Below, in pieces: positions 7,849 to 23,102 of a stretch of 64,000 nucleotides of DNA. The notes under the pieces are model-generated. The model was not told the DNA's origin. It ran no database searches and was given only the letters and a program-made list of their open reading frames with translations. Both the position numbers and the translations under genes were made by a program. Source of the DNA: Bacteroidia bacterium (GTDB lineage: Bacteria > Bacteroidota > Bacteroidia > NS11-12g > UBA9320); the NCBI GenBank assembly GCA_018402155.1, contig JAGYJG010000001.1:1531001-1595000 (forward strand), read 5' to 3'. How positions within the stretch are numbered: the stretch's first letter is position 1; each line of letters begins with the position of its first letter.

Positions 7849-9225
7849 TCAATCAACATTATCATGCAGAAAAGAATTATTAGTACGTAATTCTGGCTTT
7901 TGCTCAGGCTCTTCAATAAGACTAGTTCGACTTATTTCAGTTTCCGAAGAGTGTGTTACCTCGTTTAAGTTAATTCCTTTTCTTTTGTATGCTGGAACAT
8001 TTTCTAATTCTTCGATTCCGTGCTCTTTTTTAGCAGTATCATTGAGCTCCTTGAGGTATTTCATGCGTTTCTTCATCTCTTCTACCTTCCTATTCGCTGA
8101 CTCCACTTCGTTCAACTCCTCTTCTGCCATTTGGTCAAAAATAGTCTTTTGCTTTAGCGCATCACGTTCATCTTTAGACATCTCATCTTCATTTACCTGC
8201 AAGGCACCCAAATCAAATTCTACATCATTAACTCCTTTAGAGGTTGTTTTATATCTATTTTCAGCCCTATTAAATCCAGTAGCTATGACAGTAACAGTGA
8301 GACCTCTGCCAAGTTTTTCATCAAAACATAACCCACACTTCAATGTAGCGTCTCTGCCAGCTTCATTTTGCAAAAACTCGTTAATTTGTGCATACTCATC
8401 CATGGTAGCTTCCTCCTCTCCGTAAGAAATATTAACCAATAAATCACTTGCACCTTGTATTCTATTGTCATCGAGCAACGGAGAATTTAGTGCTTGATTT
8501 ACCGCACGCATTGCACGGTCATCACCTTCGCTTAAACCCATACCCATAATAGATACGCCACTATCACTCATGGCAGTTTTTACATCTTCAAAATCTACAT
8601 TGATGCTTCCCGCTATAGTAATAATTTCTGCTATACCCTTTGCGGCTGTAGTGAGTACATTATCTGCGTGGCCAAAAGCTTTGCTGATGGGCAAATTACC
8701 ATATATCTCTTTAATACGATCGTTAGAAATAACCAAAAGGGAATCCACACTTTCGCGTATTTCTTCTATTCCGTGAAAAGCTGCGTCACACCGTCTACCG
8801 CCCTCAAAATTAAAAGGAGTGGTAACAATACCTACAGTAAGTATACCCATATCTTTTGCAGCTTTTGCAATTACAGGAGCTGCACCAGTACCCGTGCCAC
8901 CACCCATACCAGCAGTTACAAAAACCATTTGAGTATTTACACCAAGAGAATCAATAATATCCTTTATATTCTCTTCAGCAGCTTTTCTACCCACCTCAGG
9001 ATTGGAACCTGCACCTCTACCCTCGGTTAGCGCACTACCAATTTGTATTTTATTTGGAATCGGGCTATTTTCTAGCGCCTGCGAATCTGTATTGCAGATA
9101 AAAAAATCTACTCCTTCTATACCCTCTCTGTACATGTGGTTTACTGCGTTTCCGCCTCCACCTCCTACGCCTATTACTTTAATTATAGAGGATTTGTCTT
9201 TTGGTAATTCTACTGTAAAACTCAT
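7849..9225 (-). CDS. ftsZ: Cell division protein FtsZ
   Basis: [17 protein letters not shown], tubulin signature [26 protein letters not shown]; last gene of dcw cluster. Confidence 0.98.
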
Positions 9226-9237
9226 AATTGCCTTTTT

Positions 9238-10539
9238 TTATTTGTAATCTGCTACATCTACTTCATCTTTCAACCAGTCTTTTATTCGGTCAAATAATGC
9301 TGTTTTTTTTCTATCATGACCCAGTTGGTCTGCATTCACGTTTAGCGAAGCTCCGCTGCTTCGTTCCTCTGCCAATCCTCTCAGCACAAGTCCCACACTG
9401 GTAGCATATATGGGACTTTTTACCTCATCGACCATACCTTTAGCTAGGTGTTCATTAGGATACCCAATACGCGCATCAAGACCTGTAACGAACTCTGCCA
9501 GCTGAGCAATATGCTTTAATTGAGCGCCACCTCCAGTCAATACAATGCCACCAGCTAATTTTTTCTCCATATTGCTTGCTTTAATTTCGTAATACACTAG
9601 CTCCATTATCTCCTCTATGCGTGCTTGGATAATTTTACTTAAGTTTTTAATCGAAATTTCTCGTGCCTCTCTACCGCGTATGCCGGGTATGCTAACTATT
9701 TCATTTTCACTCAGCTCATTAGCAAGTGCGCTGCCAAATTTCACTTTGAGCAACTCTGCATGAGCCTTCATTACATTACACCCTTCTTTAATGTCTTCAG
9801 TAATAATGTTACCACCGTATGGAATAATCGCTGTGTGGCGTATAATATTTTCATGAAAGATAGCAACATCTGTAGTTCCGCCACCAATATCCACAAGTAC
9901 AACACCAGCTTCTAGCTCTTCTTTACTCAATACTGCCTCAGAAGATGCCAACGGCTCTAGGGCAAGCTCAGACACTTTTAATCCAGCTTTTTCAACGCAT
10001 TTGTAAATATTTTTTGCTGCAGCTATCTGACCAGTTATTATATGGAAATTTCCTTCCAACTTTACTCCTGCCATACCTACAGGATCAACTATACCAGGCT
10101 CATCATCTACAGTATAGTCTTGTGGGAGTACATGTATTATTCTATCTCCCGGTTTCACCGCAAGTTTAAACATATCATTCTCCAACTTTTTAAGGTCTTC
10201 TTTATCGATTTCAGCCTCCCCATCATTGCGTATAATCATGCCACGATGTTGCAAGCTATTGATGTGAGCTCCGGCTATACCAACCTGCACACGTTTAATG
10301 TCTACGTTGCTTTTTTCTGATGCTTCTTTTACAGCAGCCTGTATAGCTGCCACGGTTTTATCAATATTAGAAACTACCCCACGTGTCACGCCACCGTGCG
10401 ATGCCACCTTACCCATACCCAATATGTCTACTTTCCCATATTGGTTTGCACGCCCTACAATTACGCAAACTTTGGTAGTCCCTATATCTAGACCTACGAT
10501 GATTTTTTCTTGTGCTTCTTCCATTTTATTTACAGACAA
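9238..10539 (-). CDS. ftsA: Cell division protein FtsA
   Basis: IIVGLDIGTTKVCVIVGR, VVLVDIGGGTTDVAIF actin-fold motifs; adjacent to ftsZ. Confidence 0.96.
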   Translation of the reverse strand: MSVNKMEEAQEKIIVGLDIGTTKVCVIVGRANQYGKVDILGMGKVASHGGVTRGVVSNIDKTVAAIQAAVKEASEKSNVDIKRVQVGIAGAHINSLQHRGMIIRNDGEAEIDKEDLKKLENDMFKLAVKPGDRIIHVLPQDYTVDDEPGIVDPVGMAGVKLEGNFHIITGQIAAAKNIYKCVEKAGLKVSELALEPLASSEAVLSKEELEAGVVLVDIGGGTTDVAIFHENIIRHTAIIPYGGNIITEDIKEGCNVMKAHAELLKVKFGSALANELSENEIVSIPGIRGREAREISIKNLSKIIQARIEEIMELVYYEIKASNMEKKLAGGIVLTGGGAQLKHIAQLAEFVTGLDARIGYPNEHLAKGMVDEVKSPIYATSVGLVLRGLAEERSSGASLNVNADQLGHDRKKTALFDRIKDWLKDEVDVADYK

Positions 10540-11260
10540 TTTGATCTTTATATTTCAGGTTTATTATAGTGTACTTGTCCCAGCCTAAATAATTGAGCCC
10601 GTCACTATAAAATTGCATAAGCTTAGAAAACTTCTCTTCTACGTGCTCATTATCGCCAATTATAATGCGTTGGTTCTTGATTTTTGGTATAATTACAAGA
10701 TCACCATTACTTTCCACAAATATCTGCTCTGTAAGCGCTTCCATAAATGCATTTTCTTGCACATAGGTACTTAGTGTGTACACTTTCTTAATCATAGCTT
10801 TTGTTAAACGTCCATTAGCTATGGGTACTCTTGCTACATCTGTACCTAAAGCAGGTATAATTGTGAAGTCTTTCGCAATGTAATAGTCACCTTCATCATT
10901 GCCCATGATGCGCACTACAGGTACACGTTGCTCTATCTGAATCTTCAGCTCACCCCGAAGGTCAAAAGATACCTCAGCCTCTAGCACAGCAGGCATACCC
11001 TCGAGTTGTTTCTCTATAGTAGGTAACGATAGATTTTCCTGCGTTGTACCCAAAAGTCCACCACTAAACCACTCGCTTATTTTGTCGTTTATAAGCCTTT
11101 GCGTTATCAGCTGTTTTTCTACTGGAGCCTCTATTTCTATAGTTAGCTTCTCGCAAACTTGTTGAGTTTGTTTATTTTTTAGAACGACAAACAACGCTCC
11201 CAATACAGTAAGTGTCAATATATATATAGACTTGCGCAAATACGGCTTAAACTTGACCAT
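10526..11260 (-). CDS. ftsQ: Cell division protein FtsQ-like
   Basis: Single N-terminal TM helix, POTRA-like region, position between murC and ftsA. Confidence 0.8.
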   Translation of the reverse strand: MVKFKPYLRKSIYILTLTVLGALFVVLKNKQTQQVCEKLTIEIEAPVEKQLITQRLINDKISEWFSGGLLGTTQENLSLPTIEKQLEGMPAVLEAEVSFDLRGELKIQIEQRVPVVRIMGNDEGDYYIAKDFTIIPALGTDVARVPIANGRLTKAMIKKVYTLSTYVQENAFMEALTEQIFVESNGDLVIIPKIKNQRIIIGDNEHVEEKFSKLMQFYSDGLNYLGWDKYTIINLKYKDQIVCK

Positions 11261-12623
11261 AAAAATACTCTTTTAGGGGTTGTACAAGTCTATCTATATC
11301 ACCAGCACCTAATGTCAGTAGAATTTCTATTTTACAATTTTTCACTATATTCAGTGCATCTTCTTTTCTTATGCATCTTGCATTTTCTGAGGAGATTAAT
11401 TCTAGTAATGCTTCACTCGTTACCCCTTCTAGAGGCAATTCTCTTGCCGCATAAATAGGTAAAATAAAAAGTTCATCTACCTGCTCTAATTCTTTCGCAA
11501 AATCCACCATAAAATGCTGTGTCCGGCTAAATAGATGAGGTTGAAAAATTACCGAAATTTTTTTGTCTGGATAAAGCCTTTTCACCGAAGAAATAATGGC
11601 ATTCAACTCACTAGGATGGTGGGCGTAGTCGTCGATATAGATCACGTTTTCGCCAGTGAACACATACTCAAACCGCCTTTTAATGCCCTTAAAATTCGCT
11701 AACCCATCTTTCACGGATTCAAAGCTAACGCCTGATTTAAGAGTCATAAGTGCTGCCCCAACGGCATTTTCTAGGTTATGAGAACCAGGAATATTAAGAT
11801 ACAGATTCTTTAAAAATGGTTCTCCCAAGTTATTATGTATATTGAAGTGGGTCCCTGCTCCACTTTTTTTCAATGTCACTGCATAGTAGTCTGCCGTGCA
11901 ATCGTGTGCGGAGTAGCTCACACCCTCTATATGATGTGCGTTTCCTTTTGCATAAAACCTATTTTTCGATTCTTTAACCAAATTGGAAAATTGAGTATAA
12001 GAGGCCTCCAACTCTTCTTTGTTGCCATAGATATCGAGATGGTCAGCATCTGTACTAGTGACTATGGCAAAGTCTGGATTTAGATGCAGAAAAGAGCGAT
12101 CAAACTCATCTGCCTCAGTAACACTTATATGTCTTTTCCCGTTGCCTTCCTGGTAGTAGTAGTTACTTTTTAAATTGGCACTGATCCCCCCTAAAAATGC
12201 AGTAAATTGCACGTTAGAATGTTGCAATATAGCTGCCACAATACTACTTGTAGTGGTTTTTCCATGCGTACCAGCAACGCTTAGGTTAATAGTTTGTTTA
12301 GTGACTAGACCAAGTATCTCAGCGCGTTTTGCAAGAGTATATCCTTCATTTTTAAAATAGTTGAACAATATATTGTCTGTTGGTATAGCGGGCGTATAAA
12401 CCACCAAAACCTTATCTTTTTGGTCTATATAAACAGATGGTAAATTAACTACATCATCTTCAAAAGACACTATTATTCCTTCATCATTTAATTTGTAGGT
12501 GAGTGGGCTTGGTGTTTTATCATACCCTGAAACTATATAGTCTTGTGTGTGAAAATAGCGAGCCAAGGCGCTCATTCCTATGCCGCCTATCCCCACAAAG
12601 TATATGTACTTTTTATCTTTCAA
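11247..12623 (-). CDS. murC: UDP-N-acetylmuramate--L-alanine ligase MurC
   Basis: YFVGIGGIGMSALARYF, SVAGTHGKTTTSS P-loop; 14-nt overlap with ftsQ. Confidence 0.96.
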   Translation of the reverse strand: MKDKKYIYFVGIGGIGMSALARYFHTQDYIVSGYDKTPSPLTYKLNDEGIIVSFEDDVVNLPSVYIDQKDKVLVVYTPAIPTDNILFNYFKNEGYTLAKRAEILGLVTKQTINLSVAGTHGKTTTSSIVAAILQHSNVQFTAFLGGISANLKSNYYYQEGNGKRHISVTEADEFDRSFLHLNPDFAIVTSTDADHLDIYGNKEELEASYTQFSNLVKESKNRFYAKGNAHHIEGVSYSAHDCTADYYAVTLKKSGAGTHFNIHNNLGEPFLKNLYLNIPGSHNLENAVGAALMTLKSGVSFESVKDGLANFKGIKRRFEYVFTGENVIYIDDYAHHPSELNAIISSVKRLYPDKKISVIFQPHLFSRTQHFMVDFAKELEQVDELFILPIYAARELPLEGVTSEALLELISSENARCIRKEDALNIVKNCKIEILLTLGAGDIDRLVQPLKEYFYGQV

Positions 12624-13701
12624 GGTTGTTCACTATCTCGTTTACTATACTTTGAGCTGCTAGAGGTAGTCCTAGCTTTAATATTTCGCGGCTTAAATCT
12701 TTTGTCAATTTTTCATCGTTTACAACCGATATAATTAGGTTTCCAAGCGCAGATTTAGCTTCTCCATCCTTACATAAAAGTGCAGCTTTTCTATTCACCA
12801 AACTCATTGCATTTTTTGTTTGGTGATCTTCGCTTACAAAAGGAGAAGGAACAAAAACAGTAGCTTTCCCTAATGCAGAAATCTCAGAAACAGACATGGC
12901 ACCTGCGCGACTTACAACGACATCTGCTGCAGCATAAGCTAGGTCCATCCGTTGTATAAAAGCGGTACGTACACCCCAACTAAATACACCAAAATCTCCC
13001 GAAAAGTTTTTCCCAGTTTGCCAAAGTAACTGTACACCTGCAGCTTCTAGCTGAGATATATTTTCATCAATTGCATCGTTTATAGTGCGTGCACCAAGGC
13101 TTCCACCAACTACGAGTACTGTTTTTTTCAATGGATTAAGCGAGAAATACTCTAAGGATTCTTTTCTAGTTGCACTACTTTCAAGAATATCTTGGCGAAT
13201 AGGATTACCCGTCATTACGATTTTTTCCTTTGGAAAAAATCGGTCCATCCCTTCGTAGGCTACACAAATTACTTTGGCAGTATTCTTCAAAAGTTTATTA
13301 GTAATACCGGGGTACGAATTTTGCTCTTGCAAAAAAACAGGTACACCCATTTTACTTGCCATAAAGTTAAGCGGTCCACTAGCATAGCCCCCTACGCCTA
13401 TAGTAAAATCAGGCTTAAAGTTCTTAATTATTTTGTAAGAATGCCACAAACTTGAAATCACTTTAATAGGTAGTAAAATATTTTTAGATGTAAATCGACG
13501 CTGCAATCCTGAAATCCAAAGACCGTGTATCTTGTATCCGGCTGCGGGAACTTTCTCCATCTCCATTTTACCTTTAGCGCCTACAAATTCTATACTACTC
13601 TTTGGGTATTGAATCATTATTTCATTTGCAATAGCTATAGCTGGGAAAATATGACCGCCTGTACCCCCACCTGATATAAGCACTTTGAAATTACGCTTCA
13701 T
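12613..13701 (-). CDS. murG: Undecaprenyldiphospho-muramoylpentapeptide beta-N-acetylglucosaminyltransferase MurG
   Basis: VLISGGGTGGHIFPAIAIANE; start set to MKRNFKVL rather than the longer track ORF (13755). Confidence 0.95.
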   Translation of the reverse strand: MKRNFKVLISGGGTGGHIFPAIAIANEIMIQYPKSSIEFVGAKGKMEMEKVPAAGYKIHGLWISGLQRRFTSKNILLPIKVISSLWHSYKIIKNFKPDFTIGVGGYASGPLNFMASKMGVPVFLQEQNSYPGITNKLLKNTAKVICVAYEGMDRFFPKEKIVMTGNPIRQDILESSATRKESLEYFSLNPLKKTVLVVGGSLGARTINDAIDENISQLEAAGVQLLWQTGKNFSGDFGVFSWGVRTAFIQRMDLAYAAADVVVSRAGAMSVSEISALGKATVFVPSPFVSEDHQTKNAMSLVNRKAALLCKDGEAKSALGNLIISVVNDEKLTKDLSREILKLGLPLAAQSIVNEIVNNLER

Positions 13702-14842
13702 GTTCTCTCTCTTGATAAATGGTTCTACTAGCACTAAGTATAATTCCAAAAGCAATACTCACAAATAAAATAGACGTACCGCCTCTACTGACAATTGGTA
13801 GTGCCAAACCGGTGACTGGTAAAAGATTGACAGCTACACCCATATTGATGAGTGCTTGCACTACCAAACTAAATGCAAGCCCTATTGACAATAATGCAGC
13901 AAGCGAGTTATCTGATTTTAGAACAATGCGGAAAGCCCTATAAAGAAGTAGCAGATAAAGCACCATAAGCGCTAAACCGCCAAACACACTTCCATACTCC
14001 TCAATAACAATAGCGTAAATAAAATCGGCAAAAGGTGAGGGTAAAAAATTCTTTTGGCGGCTCCTTCCCGGACCTGTACCAGTGAATCCTCCACGAGCTA
14101 CAGCTATTTTTGCTTGTCTACTTTGGTAGGTTCCTCCATCTTCACTACCATCTGTAAATGCAGTAATTCGACTTTTCATAGTAGCAATACGGCCAAATTC
14201 TACATCAGTATTCATAACATAGGCAAAAGCGCTACCTAGTACTAAAGCACCAATACCCATCAGTAAAACAACTTGTTTAAGGGGTATTCTACCTAAAAAC
14301 AACACCAACATACTCGTAAGAAAAAGAACAGCCGAAGTGCTAAAGTCTTCAGGAAATATAAGTAGACAGATAAAAAGGATAACACCTAAAATAGGTAATA
14401 ATGTTTTTTTAAAGTCATGCACCTCCCCTTGCCTTTTGGCCATAAACCGCGCTACGTAAGCCACTAAGGCAAGCTTCGCAAAGTCCGAAGTTTGCACAGT
14501 AAGACCAATGCCCGGGAGCATCACCCAACGTCGAGCATCATTTATTTCTACACCAAACAAAAGAGTATAAATAAGTAGCGGTACTGATAAAATGAGCATT
14601 ATTTGGGCAATTCTAGAAAAATACTGAATGTTGACCATATGTGTGAGCCACATTGTAAACAAGCCAAAAACCAACAACGCAGAGTGTTTCAAAAGATAAT
14701 ATTCCGTATCACCTCCCCTTTTTTGCCACGCCATAGTACCGGTACTACTATACACAGCCAATACACCATAAATAGATAGTGCAAATACTACAAACCAAAT
14801 GTATGGATCGCCCTTCAGATATTTTCCTAAAAGTTCTTTCAC
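13691..14842 (-). CDS. ftsW: Lipid II polymerase / division protein FtsW (SEDS family)
   Basis: Multi-TM protein with GIGLTVQTSDFAKLALV, FADFIYAIVIEEYGS, VTGLALPIVSRGGTS SEDS motifs; dcw position. Confidence 0.94.
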   Translation of the reverse strand: MKELLGKYLKGDPYIWFVVFALSIYGVLAVYSSTGTMAWQKRGGDTEYYLLKHSALLVFGLFTMWLTHMVNIQYFSRIAQIMLILSVPLLIYTLLFGVEINDARRWVMLPGIGLTVQTSDFAKLALVAYVARFMAKRQGEVHDFKKTLLPILGVILFICLLIFPEDFSTSAVLFLTSMLVLFLGRIPLKQVVLLMGIGALVLGSAFAYVMNTDVEFGRIATMKSRITAFTDGSEDGGTYQSRQAKIAVARGGFTGTGPGRSRQKNFLPSPFADFIYAIVIEEYGSVFGGLALMVLYLLLLYRAFRIVLKSDNSLAALLSIGLAFSLVVQALINMGVAVNLLPVTGLALPIVSRGGTSILFVSIAFGIILSASRTIYQEREHEA

Positions 14843-16182
14843 AGTCCTCTTACTGCTCTTTTAAATTGATTGCCCCTATCTTGGTAGTTTTCAAATAAAT
14901 CAAAAGATGCACAGGCCGGCGATAAAAGAACAGTCTCTCCAGTTTCTCCTAGGCCATAAGCCAAATCTACCGCCTCTTGTGCAGAGCCAGCATTTATCAT
15001 CATATCTACATCCTTTCGAAAGGCCTGATGTAGCTTCATATTGTTTTTTCCAAGGCATACTATAACTCGTACTTTAGCCTTCACTAGTGGACTCAAGGCT
15101 TCATAGTCATTTCCTTTATCTACACCGCCTGCAATCCAAATGATAGATTCTGGTACCGACTCTAGCGCATACCACGCAGCATTTACGTTAGTTGCCTTAC
15201 TGTCATTTATAAAACTAATGCCCTTTACCTTCCCTACATACTCTAGCCTATGCTCTACATTTTTGAAATCAGACAGACTTGCTCTAATACTTTCTTTTCT
15301 AATGAGCAATGAGCTGGCTATAATAGATGCCGCCATACTATTGTACGTATTGTGTTTACCTGCAATTGTTAATTGATTTATTGACATATTAAATTCTGTT
15401 TTTGGTTTATTTAATTTTATATTGATCATTTTATCTTCAACCCATGCACCCTCTTCCAAAGGTCCACCGTCATGGGTAAACGGAATTAATTTTGCACTAG
15501 ACGTGCTATTTTTTAAATAAGACACCACATCGGCATCATCAGCACAATAGATAAATTTTTGATCTACTGATTGATTTTGATTTATTCTAAACTTAGAGGC
15601 TATATATGCTTGATAAGTATCATATCTGTCTAAATGGTCTGGGCTAATATTAAGAAGTACCGCATAATCTAGCGCCACAGTGAACATTCCATCTAGCTGA
15701 AAACTACTGATTTCTAAAACGTAGTAGTCCTTATCATTTAGCGCTACTTGCTTTGCAAAACTTAGACCCACATTTCCGGCCATGCCTACATTTAGTCCGG
15801 CCCCTTGCAAAAGGTGGTAGGTAAGCAAAGTAGTAGTAGTTTTACCATTAGTGCCAGTGATGCCTATAAGAGTTGCTTGTGTGTATGCTGCCGCAAATTC
15901 TATTTCGCCTACCACCGGTATATCTTTTGCACGCGCTTTATTCACAATATCTACATCTTCCGCTATTCCTGGACTTTTTACTATTTTCTCAGCACTCAAT
16001 ATTTTAGCTTCATCATGGCCTCCTTCTTCATAGGCTATAGCATAGGAGTCTAGTTCATCTTTAAAGCTTGATTTTATAATACCATTGTCGCTTACCCAAA
16101 CTTCAAAGCCTTGTTTTTGAGCAAGTATGGCTGTACCCACCCCACTTTCTCCTGCACCAAGTATAGCTACGAGTTTACTCAT
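14839..16182 (-). CDS. murD: UDP-N-acetylmuramoylalanine--D-glutamate ligase MurD
   Basis: GITGTNGKTTTTLLTYHLL, GLSFAKQVA, INDSKATNVNA. Confidence 0.96.
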   Translation of the reverse strand: MSKLVAILGAGESGVGTAILAQKQGFEVWVSDNGIIKSSFKDELDSYAIAYEEGGHDEAKILSAEKIVKSPGIAEDVDIVNKARAKDIPVVGEIEFAAAYTQATLIGITGTNGKTTTTLLTYHLLQGAGLNVGMAGNVGLSFAKQVALNDKDYYVLEISSFQLDGMFTVALDYAVLLNISPDHLDRYDTYQAYIASKFRINQNQSVDQKFIYCADDADVVSYLKNSTSSAKLIPFTHDGGPLEEGAWVEDKMINIKLNKPKTEFNMSINQLTIAGKHNTYNSMAASIIASSLLIRKESIRASLSDFKNVEHRLEYVGKVKGISFINDSKATNVNAAWYALESVPESIIWIAGGVDKGNDYEALSPLVKAKVRVIVCLGKNNMKLHQAFRKDVDMMINAGSAQEAVDLAYGLGETGETVLLSPACASFDLFENYQDRGNQFKRAVRGL

Positions 16183-16186
16183 TTCA

Positions 16187-17437
16187 TTATCTTAGCTTAA
16201 AGGTTATAATGGTGAAAATGGCAAGCATAATACCGACTATCCAAAAGCGAGTAACAATTTTGGGTTCTGCATATCCTAGTTTTTGATAATGGTGATGAAG
16301 CGGTGACATTTTAAAAATACGTCTTCCTTCTCCATACTTCTTTTTAGTGTATTTAAAATAGCTGACTTGCAGCATAACACTAAGATTTTCCACTAAAAAA
16401 ACTCCGCACAGTATAGGTAGCACCAATTCTTTGCGTATCATCAAAGCCAATACAGCTATCACTCCTCCCAAAGCTAAACTTCCAGTATCTCCCATGAAGA
16501 CCTGTGCCGGAAAACTATTATACCATAAAAAACCTATACAAGCGCCGGCCAAAGATGCCGCATATATTACAAGCTCTCCTTGATTTGGTATAAACATTAT
16601 ATTTAGATAATCAGAGAAAATAAGGTTTCCACTCACGAAAGCGAGCACCGCCAGAGTAACACTAATAATTGCAGAACTACCTGCCGCTAATCCGTCAATA
16701 CCGTCAGTAAGATTTGCCCCATTAGAAACAGCAGTGATAACCAGCACTACTACCAGCATAAAAACAATCCATGACCATTTCTTTGCTGAAGAATCACTCA
16801 TCCAAAACAATACTTTAGAATAATCTAGTTCATGAGTTTTTACAAAAGGCAGCGTAGTTGTAGTACTTTTTATATCCTTGAAATACTTTAACTGTCCATT
16901 TATATTTATAACCTTTGCATTTAGTGGCGCTTCTTGTATCGTAGCCACAGTATATTGTTCACGTACTACCACATCGTCGTCAAAATGCAGTACTAAGGCT
17001 ACAATGACACCAAGGCCTACTTGCCCCACAACTTTAAATCTACCTGCAAGGCCTGCTTTATTTTTTTTATAAATTTTTATGTAGTCATCTATAAAACCGA
17101 TAGCTCCGAGCCAAACTGTACTAAATATCATCAACTGAATATAAATATTATCGAGCTTAGCAAAAAGCAGCGTTGGCACCAATATCGCAGCAAGTATGAT
17201 AAGTCCGCCCATTGTAGGCGTGCCGCGTTTAGCCTCTTCACCATCTAAACCAAGCGTGCGGATGGTTTCTGAAGCTTGTAAACTGCGTAATCGTTCGATA
17301 AGACTTTTACCAAATAAAAGGGATATAATTAATGATACAATAACGGCTAATGAAGCTCTAAATGAAATATACTGAAACACCCCTGCACCGGTCAGGTTGT
17401 ACGTACTTTGAAGATAGTCGAACAAATGATATAACAT
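16187..17437 (-). CDS. mraY: Phospho-N-acetylmuramoyl-pentapeptide-transferase MraY
   Basis: [44 protein letters not shown]. Confidence 0.97.
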
Positions 17438-18894
17438 TACTCTTTGATTTGTTTAAGGTTCTTAATTAGTATTATTTTATCGTCAAATGGATATCTTACA
17501 CCCATAACTTCCTGGTAAGTTTCGTGTCCTTTTCCCGCTACCAGTATTATATCTCCTTCTTTACTTAGACTTATAGCAGTTTTAATTGCTTCTTCTCTAT
17601 TGGTTATTTTTAGCACTTTTTTGAAGTGCTGCGGACTTACGCCATTCATCATTTGCTCAATTATCTCATCAGGGTTCTCAGTACGGGGATTATCACTAGT
17701 GAGTATAACACGATTGCTACTTTCACAAGCTACACGTGCCATTATGGGTCTTTTCTCTTGATCTCTGTCTCCGCCACAACCTATTACAGTGATAAGTTCC
17801 TCATTGGTTGTCCGCAGCGCATTGATTGTATCTACTACATTTTGTAGTGCATCTGGCGTGTGAGCATAATCCACGATGGCAGTTATTCCTGCTACTTTTA
17901 CGTGCTGAAAACGTCCGTCTACACTGTTTAAGGTACTCAGTGCTTTTACTATATCTGTATGTTCTTTGCCAAGCAAAAAAGCAGCTCCGTACACTGCCAA
18001 AATATTATACGCATTAAATTTCCCTACCAATCTGAGCCATACCTCAGTCTGGCGGATATCTAAAAGCATTCCATTAAAATCACTTTCTATTATACGTGTT
18101 TTAAAATCACTCACAGATTTTAAACTGTACGTATAGATGGTAGCTTTTGTATTTTGCACCATAATCTTACCGTTTTTATCGTCATTGTTAGTTAGTACAA
18201 AGGCGTCATTACTGAGGTTATCAAAAAGTAACTTTTTAGTATATAGGTATTCTTTAAATGTCGTATGGTAATCAAGATGGTCATGGGTAATATTTGAAAA
18301 GATAGCCCCATTGAAATCTAAGCCTACAGTTCTATGCTGATGAAGTGCATGAGAACTTACCTCCATAAAAGCGTATTCGCAATTGGCGTTCACCATATCG
18401 GCGAGCAACTCATTGATGCGTACACTATTGGGCGTAGTGTGTGTGCTGGTGCTATCTACTCCATTGATACTATATTTGATGGTAGAGAGCAAACCACAAG
18501 TATGTCCCAAAGCCATAAAACATTGATAAAGCATTGTGGCAATAGATGTCTTGCCATTGGTACCGGTAACCCCTACAAGCCTTAACTTTTTACTGGGATT
18601 ATCATAATATTCCGCTGCCAAATACCCGAGGGCTTGTGAAGCGTTATCTACCAAAACATAGGTAGCTTGTCCTATTTTAGCTGGAAGTTCTTCACACACT
18701 ATTACACCTGCACCATTCGCTAAAGCTTGCTCTACATATAAGTGCCCATTGGTAGAAGCCCCACGTGTAGCCGCAAACAAAAATCCACTTCTCACTGCTC
18801 TAGAATCTAAGGATAAGCCTGTAACTTGCACTGCTGTATTCCCTATAACTTTTATAGGTGTTATGGACGTCATTATGTTGCTTAGTATTTTCAA
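17437..18894 (-). CDS. murE: UDP-N-acetylmuramoyl-tripeptide synthetase MurE (probably meso-DAP adding)
   Basis: [35 protein letters not shown] (DNPR motif). Confidence 0.95.
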
Positions 18895-20960
18895 TTCAAT
18901 CGCACATAAACAGTTCTGTTTTCATATATAGGTACTCCAGGCTCTGGACTTTGTTCCACAACCCTACCATACCCTGATATTTTAGCTTTCAACCCATTTA
19001 TCTCTAAGACATACACGGCATCCTTTGCACCTAAACCTTTCACATTAGGCATTTTACCGTCGCTTTTCGAGATACCTGTAACCGTACCCTCTGCAGCATT
19101 TATTTGTACTAGTTCTGTATTTACTTCTTTATCTAGTTTAACACCCAACACACGGTTAAGCTGTTTAAAATCGGAATAGTATCCGAGGGTATATAAAGGT
19201 GCTTTCTTGGCCACTTTTTCCACCTCCTGTTTTACACTGATGGTGAATATTTGTACTGCAACTTCACTAAAAACTGGAGCTGCTACTTGCGAAGCATAAA
19301 ACTGTCCGTTGCTAGGTTCAGTAATACACACATACATGCTATACACTGGATTATCAGCAGGAAAATGACCCACAAAACTGGCATTATACTTTTTTGATTT
19401 TTGGTAAGCTCCTCGGGTGGCGATTTGTGCAGTTCCAGTTTTACCACCCATAGACACTAGACTACTGACCACACCACTAGCTGTACCTTCGCTAAATACT
19501 GCTGCGGTCAGTTCTTTTATTTTGTCTGAGGTCTCTTTACTACAAACCCTAATTTTCCTAACATTTTTGTCATTATCTTTAGTTACTATACCCGCATCAG
19601 TTACACTATTTACAATACGTGGCTTGATCATAATGCCACCATTGATTATCCCATTATAAGCCGTAAGTAGCTGCAGTGGAGTGTGCTGATTTTCATACCC
19701 TACAGCAAGCCAAGGTAGAGTAAGCTGTGACCATGTACTATTTTCCGGATGATTAAGAAATGGCTCAGGTTCTCCTAAAATCTCAGTACCAGTGATTTTG
19801 TCTAAATCTAGCTTACGCAAGTGTGCAATATATTTGCTAGGATTATCACCATAATTATCAAAAATAATGGACGAGAACGCTACGTTGCTAGATAAAGCAA
19901 AAGCCTGCTTAAAACTCATCTTGCTGAATCGCCCTTTGTCTGAGTCTAACATTGATTTGCCAAAATAATCTCGCTCGCCGTTGCCTATATCCAATGTATC
20001 ATTTACTCCTATCAACCCATCTTCAAAGGCTGCCATTGCAGAAAAAACTTTCCAAACAGAGCCTGGCTCATAACTATTACCTACAGCATAGTTGTATAAC
20101 TCACCGTATGTACCATCTTCTTTCCTTTTCAGGTTAGCCATGGCCTTTATTTTACCCGTTGAGACTTCCATTACTACCATACAGCCACTTTTAGCATTGT
20201 GTTTCTGCAATGTTTTTCCCAATGCTCTCTGCGTTATTTCTTGAAAATCAATATTAATCGACGTATGCACATCTCTGCCATTTTGAGGCTCAATAAGATT
20301 TTCATCATTCATAGGTCGATAACCCCCAGAAATACGTTGTACCAATCGCTGGCCCTTAGTCCCCCCCAAATCTTCATCATATGCCCGCTCTAAACCCACA
20401 CCAGGATTATCCACCGTACTATAGCCAATAGTTCTGTCGGCTAAAACTCCAGCGGGTTTCACTCGCTTAGTATTTAGCTCAAATAAAATGCCCCCTTTAT
20501 ATCGTCCTTTTTTAAAAATAGCAAAATCTTGTAAAGCTTTTTGCTCATGATAATTAACCTTTCGCCTTATGAGCTTGTACCTATTTTTATCAGCATACGC
20601 CTTTTTTAACATAGCTAAAAAATATGACGCTGTATGGTCTGGAAATAATCTAGATAACTCAATAGCCAACTCATTTACTTGCATCTTAAAGGTATCAGCA
20701 TTCACCACTGTAGCATCCCAATGTATATCATAAATAGGCATAGAAGTAGAAAGCAAACTCCCATCGTCTGAGTAGATATTGCCTCTTGCAGGACTAATAT
20801 CTTGATGTCGTATAGTTGCACTATCAGAAAGACTTAGCCACTTATCTCTCTCTACAAGCTGTACTTTAAACATCTCTAAAGTAATCCAAAGTGCAAAAAG
20901 ACCCACGACGCTCATGCCAAAAACTACTCGCCATAATATGCTCTTTTTTACATTAATCAT
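18891..20960 (-). CDS. ftsI: Penicillin-binding protein (FtsI/PBP3-type transpeptidase) with C-terminal PASTA-like domain
   Basis: ALSSNVAFSSI, GKTGTAQ KTG motif; C-terminal MPNVKGLGAKDAVYVLEINGLKAKISGYGRVVEQSPEPG matches PASTA. Confidence 0.93.
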   Translation of the reverse strand: MINVKKSILWRVVFGMSVVGLFALWITLEMFKVQLVERDKWLSLSDSATIRHQDISPARGNIYSDDGSLLSTSMPIYDIHWDATVVNADTFKMQVNELAIELSRLFPDHTASYFLAMLKKAYADKNRYKLIRRKVNYHEQKALQDFAIFKKGRYKGGILFELNTKRVKPAGVLADRTIGYSTVDNPGVGLERAYDEDLGGTKGQRLVQRISGGYRPMNDENLIEPQNGRDVHTSINIDFQEITQRALGKTLQKHNAKSGCMVVMEVSTGKIKAMANLKRKEDGTYGELYNYAVGNSYEPGSVWKVFSAMAAFEDGLIGVNDTLDIGNGERDYFGKSMLDSDKGRFSKMSFKQAFALSSNVAFSSIIFDNYGDNPSKYIAHLRKLDLDKITGTEILGEPEPFLNHPENSTWSQLTLPWLAVGYENQHTPLQLLTAYNGIINGGIMIKPRIVNSVTDAGIVTKDNDKNVRKIRVCSKETSDKIKELTAAVFSEGTASGVVSSLVSMGGKTGTAQIATRGAYQKSKKYNASFVGHFPADNPVYSMYVCITEPSNGQFYASQVAAPVFSEVAVQIFTISVKQEVEKVAKKAPLYTLGYYSDFKQLNRVLGVKLDKEVNTELVQINAAEGTVTGISKSDGKMPNVKGLGAKDAVYVLEINGLKAKISGYGRVVEQSPEPGVPIYENRTVYVRLN

Positions 20961-21261
20961 ATTTTTCTTTTCTGATTACCGTAATAGCTCTATTTGGCTC
21001 TTTTACCCCACGCTCTGCAAGCCTCTCTTCTAAATTTGCACGCGATCTGTTCCTCATAATTTCTGATTTTAGCGTCACATTTTCAGCACGCTTTTCTACC
21101 AGATTTTTTTTTGTAGCCTCAATGTCTCTGACTATATTATCTGTTCGATGTGTGAGATAAATATATAGTAGCGCTATTCCAAACAAGAAGATTAGATAGT
21201 TAATCCATTCGGTTGTTAGCTTTAAATCTGGCGTCGATATGGATTTTTTTTGCTTGGCCAT
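20953..21261 (-). CDS. FtsL-like cell division protein
   Basis: Short protein with one TM helix and coiled coil, located between rsmH and the PBP gene. Confidence 0.75.
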   Translation of the reverse strand: MAKQKKSISTPDLKLTTEWINYLIFLFGIALLYIYLTHRTDNIVRDIEATKKNLVEKRAENVTLKSEIMRNRSRANLEERLAERGVKEPNRAITVIRKEKYD

Positions 21262-22172
21262 TAAATACGTTCTGCTACTCTCAACTTTGCACTACGAGAC
21301 CTATTATTAGCTATTATTTCATTGGCTTTAGCCAATATTGGCTTGCGACTAACTGCACTGTACACCTGAGGTAAATTCCCAAATGTATCTGCACACTTGT
21401 CACCAGCTACATTACCAGTCTGTATAAGATTTTTAACTATTCGGTCTTCTAACGAATGATAGGATATAACCACTAGCCTTCCACCGGGCTTCAGCATCTT
21501 AGTTGCCTGTGTTAGCATTTCTTCTAACGTCACTATTTCTGCGTTCACCTCTATGCGAATAGCCTGATAAACTTTCGCTAGCATTTTATTTCTGGTTTTA
21601 TCGTTTAGAAATCGCTCCAACGAAAGATCTAAATCAAGCACAGTATCTATGGGTTTCACTTTACGATAATCCAATATAGCGTTTGCCATTGCCGAGGCCC
21701 TGTCCAACTCTCCATAGCTCCGAAGCACTTTAGCAAGTCTCGGCTGATCATACGTATTTAAGACATTTTTAGCTGACAATTCAGCTCCAGTATTCATACG
21801 CATATCAAGCTCAGAATCATCAAAACGAAAGGAAAAACCCCTATTTTTAGCATCTAAATGATGCGAACTCACCCCCAAGTCAGCCAACACTCCATCCAGC
21901 TTATCTTCGCCGTAATAGGAACAAAAATTTTCTAAATACCTAAAATTAGCATGACAAAAGTATAGCCGAGAATCATCTATTCTATTGCGTAAAGAATCAT
22001 CATCCTGATCAAAAACAATCAACTTACCCTCATCGTCAAGCATATCTAAAATAGCCTGCGAATGACCCCCGCCGCCATAGGTGACATCTACATATGTACC
22101 TTTAGGATTAATTTGCAAACCATCCAAACACTCTTTCAGCATTACAGGCACGTGATACTTACTCATCTCCAC
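21261..22172 (-). CDS. rsmH: 16S rRNA (cytosine(1402)-N(4))-methyltransferase RsmH
   Basis: YHVPVMLKECLDGL, VDVTYGGGGHS, DGVLADLGVSSHHLD, SYHSLEDRIVK. Confidence 0.96.
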   Translation of the reverse strand: MEMSKYHVPVMLKECLDGLQINPKGTYVDVTYGGGGHSQAILDMLDDEGKLIVFDQDDDSLRNRIDDSRLYFCHANFRYLENFCSYYGEDKLDGVLADLGVSSHHLDAKNRGFSFRFDDSELDMRMNTGAELSAKNVLNTYDQPRLAKVLRSYGELDRASAMANAILDYRKVKPIDTVLDLDLSLERFLNDKTRNKMLAKVYQAIRIEVNAEIVTLEEMLTQATKMLKPGGRLVVISYHSLEDRIVKNLIQTGNVAGDKCADTFGNLPQVYSAVSRKPILAKANEIIANNRSRSAKLRVAERI

Positions 22173-22632
22173 CTCCTAAACTTAAATTACCCATTACATC
22201 CTCTGCCAAATCTGCAAAATCATCTGCGTCGACCTGCATCATATCATCATAGAGATGCTTACTCCAAATTTCTATTTTATTACCATAGGCATAAAATACA
22301 GCTTCATTCTTGATCTCGGCATACTCGCACAACTTTTTGGACACCAACAGCCTAGATGAATTATCTAGTTGTACTTCTGTAGCCCCATTACTAAATTGAC
22401 GAATAAACATTCGATGTTTTTTATTAAAATGATTCAGCTTTTCAAGATTACCTAATTCCTCATCCCAGTCCTTTCTGGTGTACAAGGTGAGACACTTCTC
22501 AAATCCTCTATTCAATACCAACTTACCTACCGTATCTTTTGGAAGCTGTTTTTTGAGACCCGCGGGCAAAACTACACGACCCTTTTCGTCTAGTTTGACT
22601 TCGAATTCCCCTATATAAAGTGGCTTTGGCAC
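22159..22632 (-). CDS. mraZ: Transcriptional regulator / division protein MraZ
   Basis: GEFEVKLDEKGRVVLPAGLKKQLP SpoVT/AbrB-like MraZ motif; first gene of dcw cluster. Confidence 0.94.
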   Translation of the reverse strand: MPKPLYIGEFEVKLDEKGRVVLPAGLKKQLPKDTVGKLVLNRGFEKCLTLYTRKDWDEELGNLEKLNHFNKKHRMFIRQFSNGATEVQLDNSSRLLVSKKLCEYAEIKNEAVFYAYGNKIEIWSKHLYDDMMQVDADDFADLAEDVMGNLSLGGGDE

Positions 22633-22654: not shown

Positions 22655-22662
22655 CAAAAGTA
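22655..22662 (-). promoter_or_regulatory. -7 box TACTTTTG of the mraZ/dcw promoter
   Basis: caaaagta on plus strand = TACTTTTG on minus, 22 nt upstream of the mraZ start. Confidence 0.55.
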
Positions 22663-22672
22663 AAACCATTTT

Positions 22673-22697
22673 TCCCACTTTTTCCCACTATCTCCCA
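22673..22697 (-). promoter_or_regulatory. Putative MraZ box: three TGGGA direct repeats at 10-bp spacing
   Basis: Minus strand TGGGA-GATAG-TGGGA-AAAAG-TGGGA at 22693-22697, 22683-22687, 22673-22677; lies where the -33 region should be. Confidence 0.8.
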
Positions 22698-23102
22698 CAT
22701 TTTGAAAAAAGTATTCCACATTAAATGTTATTTCATTGATAACCAATTTATTAAGTAGTAGTTGAAATTGAATAAAAATATCAATATTAGCGTTTAACAA
22801 CGCTTTCGACCTTCAAAATTCCATGTCTATTCGTAAAATTTGCAGATTTGAATTAGCTTCTTTGGAGCAGATTAGCACTATATTTTTAAGGATAAATATT
22901 TATACCAATTCAATAGAAACTACATGACAAAATGAACAATTTTGAGTAAGCTAATTATAAAATATCCAGCTACTATAAAATCCCACATATTCATTGCTAA
23001 GTGATAAGAATGACCCACGGAAAACAGGACCAAACTAACACAATTCAAACACGCTTTGCATAAATGCAACTGCCTTAAGCATCACACAACAAGCTCTTGA
23101 CC

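Follow-up and report, generated by a model that had tools for sequence, protein, structure and literature searches.

Predicted MraZ operator at the dcw promoter of a Bacteroidia genome and a DnaA-box-like element next to it

Described MraZ operators and the present locus

Eraso et al. are said to have described the MraZ box of E. coli in 2014 as TGGGN direct repeats. As summarized in PMC8475190, E. coli MraZ is a repressor that binds MraZ boxes, the MraZ site of Mollicutes consists of serial direct repeats with the sequence AAAGTG[T/G] (Fisunov et al. 2016, via PMC8475190), its sole genomic copy in M. genitalium lies at mraZ, and an mraZ mutant of M. genitalium de-represses the cluster.

The window, i.e., the whole stretch of 64,000 nucleotides analysed here, carries a dcw cluster headed by mraZ (Table 1); the names of the genes following rsmH are a reading of the ORF sequences. 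PF02381 matches the mraZ product in two stretches, corresponding to the two half-domains of a cognate MraZ, and both DxxxR motifs were read directly from the sequence; solved homologues are 1n0e and 9qlg. Like the E. coli MraZ box, the locus presents direct TGGG-type repeats with 5-nt spacers in an mraZ promoter, with MraZ encoded directly downstream. Unlike in E. coli, the window has its repeats immediately upstream of a predicted -7 box of the Bacteroidota type (TAnnTTTG), and in class Bacteroidia they are adjoined by a DnaA-box-like site. The Mollicutes operator is resembled in that the class consensus, AAAGTGGGA at a 10-bp period, contains AAAGTG, and in that the site occupies a single genomic locus, at mraZ; here, however, a full dcw set rather than four genes is concerned, and the promoter type differs. 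The MraZ box at the Bacteroidota promoter is a further case of an already known operator type and extends this autoregulatory operator to Bacteroidota with their own type of promoter. The new part is the composite with the DnaA-box-like site, which has moderate support across the class and its weakest support in this window.

Table 1. Positions of the features discussed, in window coordinates
Feature	Position	Strand	Basis
Remaining dcw cluster: ftsL-like, ftsI, murE, mraY, murD, ftsW, murG, murC, ftsQ, ftsA, ftsZ	7849..21261	-	ORF reading
rsmH/mraW, second dcw gene	21261..22172	-	PF01795
mraZ, GTG start at 22632, 157 aa, two MraZ half-domains, DEKGR and DNSSR (DxxxR) motifs	22159..22632	-	PF02381, 96.7 bits
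Predicted Bacteroidota -7 box of the dcw promoter, TACTTTTG	22655..22662	-	Sequence; TAnnTTT(G/A) conserved in relatives
MraZ-box repeat 3, TGGGA	22673..22677	-	Sequence; third-GTGG-to-TA distance of 16 bp, the class mode
MraZ-box repeat 2, TGGGA, over the expected -33 promoter position	22683..22687	-	Sequence and geometry
MraZ-box repeat 1, TGGGA (GTGGGAG in context)	22693..22697	-	Sequence; GTGG kept in 19/19 genus upstreams
Companion DnaA-box-like 9-mer, TATTCCACA (TGTGGAATA on the minus strand)	22712..22720	+	One mismatch from TTWTNCACA

The start codon of mraZ appears to be GTG or TTG in nearly all species of the genus and only rarely ATG (window positions 22630 to 22632 and congeners); possibly, low translation is under selection.

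Repeats and predicted promoter upstream of mraZ

The minus strand reads TGGGA GATAG TGGGA AAAAG TGGGA from 22697 to 22673, and its context through repeats and promoter up to the start codon is ...TGTGGGAGATAGTGGGAAAAAGTGGGAAAAATGGTTTTACTTTTGAACTCAAGTAACAAGCTAAAAC-GTG. The three identical pentamers at a 10-bp period and the -7 box 22 nt before the mraZ start, both noted in the initial annotation, proved exact on direct reading of the strand: the period is precisely 10 bp throughout, and a spacer from 22654 to 22633 separates the -7 box from the start codon. The repeats are thus positioned 41 to 65 bp 5′ of the mraZ start in the mraZ/dcw promoter, with the -7 box in between. The full three-repeat pattern has one match at zero mismatches within the window, and in the 2.49-Mb genome the mraZ copy is the sole exact match; the exact looser pattern GTGG-N6-GTGG-N6-GTGG is likewise unique. 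Three matches with two mismatches occur elsewhere in the genome, which is the chance level, and an MraZ regulon beyond dcw was therefore rejected.

Upstream regions of mraZ were collected at 23 loci on genome contigs, in 58 relatives, and in 258 genomes sampled from the phylum; below, f-numbers denote families, L-numbers loci, and G-numbers genomes. The three GTGG motifs at 10-bp distance are kept in all 19 distinct upstreams of the studied genus. Of the 114 distinct class upstreams (a later hold-out included), 107 had a best three-repeat score beyond the 99.9th percentile of shuffled sequences, as did 85% of 172 mraZ upstreams across the phylum. The 10-bp repeats beside mraZ persist at genus, family, order, class, and phylum level; in some families, such as f4, the second and third repeats are degenerate. 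This conservation also bears on the notion that the repeats serve no regulator and are G-rich by chance or for structural reasons. Matches with at most two mismatches did appear in 7 of 100 window shuffles (mean, 0.07), but recurrence across the phylum at one position beside mraZ refutes such an origin, whose probability we regard as negligible. The MraZ protein itself was not detected in nine f26 genomes and two f12 genomes, and whole lineages may be devoid of mraZ through loss.

Among the class upstreams with repeats, 63 of 84 contained a TAnnTTT(G/A) box within 45 bp, compared to a rate of approximately 10% in shuffles, and in 46 of these 63 the TA follows the start of the third GTGG at exactly 16 bp. 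This near-fixed distance places the -33 position inside the repeats, in the window at repeat 2. Other classes have a promoter like TTGAC-N17-TAC, and there, as read by eye, the first repeat overlaps the -10 region. Overlap with the core promoter is hence kept across promoter types, as predicted by promoter occlusion. Three further points of the initial annotation can be judged from these comparisons: the relatives do keep the 10-bp repeats upstream of mraZ, from genus to phylum; the repeats do recur next to TAnnTTT(G/A), at exactly 16 bp in the 46 upstreams mentioned; and their assignment to the -33 position is borne out by the class geometry. Its reading as an MraZ box acting by promoter occlusion is well supported in silico by conservation and promoter overlap.

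Based on sequence conservation, the repeats represent a well-supported candidate MraZ site throughout the phylum. Very probably, they constitute the MraZ operator of the dcw cluster, at which MraZ would bind, cover the -33 region, and block the polymerase in a negative autoregulatory loop. MraZ, which is an oligomer in the solved homologues, is envisaged to bind the three GTGGGA repeats on one face of the DNA and to cover the -33 region immediately preceding the -7 box; its occupancy would exclude RNA polymerase, resulting in negative feedback on mraZ-rsmH and on the division and wall genes that follow. Binding, repression, and occlusion at the dcw promoter are inferred, and negative autoregulation is proposed here because of the homology with the MraZ proteins of E. 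coli and M. genitalium, which repress their own cluster. The opposite sign of control has to be weighed, since no recognisable -33 element underlies the repeats in the window sequence, so that another factor could be needed at the promoter and activation by MraZ is conceivable in principle. Such an MraZ would stand in for the missing -33 contact; counted from the inferred start, the repeats span approximately -48 to -25, a location compatible with a class II activator. Activation is nevertheless improbable, given that the E. coli and M. genitalium proteins repress their own cluster (PMC8475190) and that the overlap of the repeats with the -10 region in other classes fits repression only.

A DnaA-box-like 9-mer beside the repeats

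In class Bacteroidia, a second conserved element, the 9-mer TTWTYMACA, is found in either orientation just 5′ of the repeats. In a first set of 76 distinct class upstreams, a perfect TTWTNCACA was present within 48 bp in 41%, compared to 3% both in dinucleotide shuffles and in control windows located further upstream; the reversed consensus, serving as control, was found in 2 of the 76, and the enrichment is centred on these 48 bp 5′ of the repeats. None of 72 mraZ upstreams of other classes had a perfect TTWTNCACA. In the enlarged class set, TTWTNCACA at the companion position remained enriched (36/114 upstreams versus 15/680 controls), and TTWTYMACA or TTWTNCACA together reached 72/114 versus 22/680 control windows (3%). 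In a hold-out set comprising 30 additional genomes, 25 of 29 upstreams had the element with no more than one mismatch, compared to 15 of 145 control windows. The companion occurs in f2, f3, f4, f5, f6, f8, and f9, with the canonical TTWTNCACA at this position in many relatives, and is mostly absent in f7, f10, and f11. The f1 count (25/32) is descriptive only, because TAWTCCACA was allowed for the studied genus after the data had been seen. All 19 genus upstreams carry TGTGGAWTA, equivalent to TAWTCCACA and one mismatch from the consensus. The window copy likewise fails an exact match to TTWTNCACA, deviating at position 2.

Spacing and orientation of the companion determine whether it could simply be a fourth or fifth MraZ half-site of a longer operator bound by an MraZ ring. 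In the studied genus and part of f2, the GTGG of the TGTGGA element precedes repeat 1 by 21 bp, i.e., two turns, a weak TG marking the 10-bp step in between, and some f2 members (L072, L073) resemble five successive repeats. The same-strand spacing of 21 to 23 bp in f1 and part of f2 changes to 36 bp in f4, which is out of phase, and the element of f6 and others is inverted, abutting the repeats and reading TTATCAACA or TTATTAACA with GTGG on neither strand. The variants TTATCAACA, TTATTAACA, and TTATGCACA all lose the GTGG core, the companion of L104 is TGTGCATAA, and L267 and L274 hold the canonical TTATCCACA and TTTTCCACA at the same place; moreover, paired copies of this 9-mer are found at the promoters of dnaB, HU, and dprA. 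Since families differ in how the companion is oriented and how far it lies from the repeats, and since variants lose GTGG, it is probably not a further MraZ half-site, and we rate the longer MraZ operator as unlikely. For the window itself the identity of the element is weakest, because TGTGGAWTA is one mismatch off and the 21-bp spacing is compatible with a half-site.

DnaA is a transcription factor at DnaA-box promoters such as those of nrd and dnaA in E. coli. The present system resembles these in having TTWTNCACA-like 9-mers upstream of dnaB, nrdJ, and dcw, and differs from them in the one mismatch of the window 9-mer and in the prevalence of TTAT[CT]AACA in f6. With moderate confidence, the comparisons point to DnaA or a DnaA-like cell-cycle regulator as co-controlling the dcw promoter. 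Bound at the companion site, DnaA would act on the same promoter as MraZ and link dcw transcription to the replication cycle; the chances are about even that the companion provides this input, by DnaA itself or a regulator of the same specificity, and thereby ties dcw transcription to replication. The site would offer a concrete, testable route coupling chromosome replication to transcription of division genes in Bacteroidota, where replication-division coupling appears little studied. Among the papers searched, which comprised few subscription ones, none tied DnaA boxes to mraZ/dcw in Bacteroidetes.

Related boxes at replication genes and candidate origins

A search for pairs (TTATYMACA-N0-22-TTATYMACA) in 22 genomes yielded 29 matches, the neighboring genes of which were named by NCBIfam and Pfam. 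Eight f6 genomes account for eight pairs, located upstream of an HU gene (verified as HU in every case) that neighbors fmt/recQ. Five pairs precede dnaB, in four genomes of f6 and one of f3, and three are situated between dprA and an HU-CCDC81/SPOR gene; the element is shared with promoters of replication genes, including dnaB, nrdJ, and dinB of the studied genome. One pair each was found near xerD and in the mraZ upstream of G090, several fall within dense clusters of f5 and f3 genomes, and the remainder are in coding sequence or without a named gene. At L281, L285, L288, L291, and L293 to L296 (each at 1501 to 1530), TTAT[CT]AACA pairs approximately 20 bp apart are located approximately 100 to 115 bp upstream of HU.

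The studied genome contains 74 TWWTCCACA sites, a number below that of the reversed-pattern control, and 13 of them are intergenic by a crude gene call. The intergenic ones include sites upstream of mraZ, dnaB (TTTTCCACA), dinB (TTATCCACA), and the class II ribonucleotide reductase gene, but the set is not clean, as others precede metabolic genes (pckA, carB). The xerD and dprA upstreams of this genome have no box. TTTTCCACA is situated approximately 180 bp upstream of dnaB (L305, 1286 to 1294; C1 459785), and TTTTCCACA, TTATCAACA, and TTTTCAACA are found within approximately 110 bp in the divergent region 5′ of nrdJ (L327, 1341 to 1457; C1 at about 2058.8 kb). At the dnaA promoter, used as a positive control in a weak check, only the studied species had a box: TTTTGCACA occurs 43 bp 5′ of its dnaA and was not seen among correctly oriented congeners. 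The oriC of Bacteroidetes is commonly far from dnaA (PMC4755523). Assigning the origin of this genome by box clusters was tried and rejected: among the best groups, that at 2153 kb is inside a coding gene reading as a photolyase/cryptochrome, and near the GC-skew minimum, at about 2.108 Mb, no clear box cluster was observed. Dense TTATCCACA-type clusters, with 5 to 10 boxes in approximately 1 kb, are present at L244/L248, L243/L247, and L245 in f5 and f3 genomes and are candidate replication origins. Box pairs were found in f3, f4, f5, and f6 genomes; in G053, G064, and G160, TTATCCACA occurs as unclustered single sites.

These distributions cut both ways for a cell-cycle regulator other than DnaA with a TTWTYMACA-like site. 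The f6 boxes are mostly TTAT[CT]AACA, with A where the E. coli DnaA box has C, and their paired copies approximately 20 bp apart resemble the site of a dimeric regulator; in addition, no box pairs were found in the studied genome or in f2, and the probable origin region of the former is without a box cluster. Against this, canonical TTATCCACA/TTTTCCACA predominates in f2, f3, and f4, the dense TTATCCACA clusters occur in f5 and f3, and the targets dnaB, nrdJ, and dcw fit DnaA. The DnaA recognition helix features DHST/DHTT in f1 to f4 and DHATV in f6 and f8, the families whose box is mostly TTAT[CT]AACA, so DHATV may go with an altered box; yet TTATCAACA is present as well in some f2 genomes whose helix has DHST, and due to these exceptions and the non-independence of the families the pairing is only suggestive. 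Overall, we consider a regulator other than DnaA doubtful, if conceivable. The DnaA-box-like site is kept over at least seven families, with changing spacing and orientation, and is common to dnaB, HU, dprA, and nrdJ. In its widest form, put forward tentatively and falling slightly short of an even chance, the DnaA reading assumes a composite promoter in class Bacteroidia at which MraZ and DnaA bind side by side; dcw would belong to a conserved DnaA regulon with dnaB, HU, dprA, and ribonucleotide reductase, and the initiation of replication would act directly on the expression of division genes in the phylum.

Another stretch conserved in the studied genus, with ATCAA...TAACA as its minus-strand sequence, is located 5′ of the DnaA-box-like element, at window positions 22725 to 22745.
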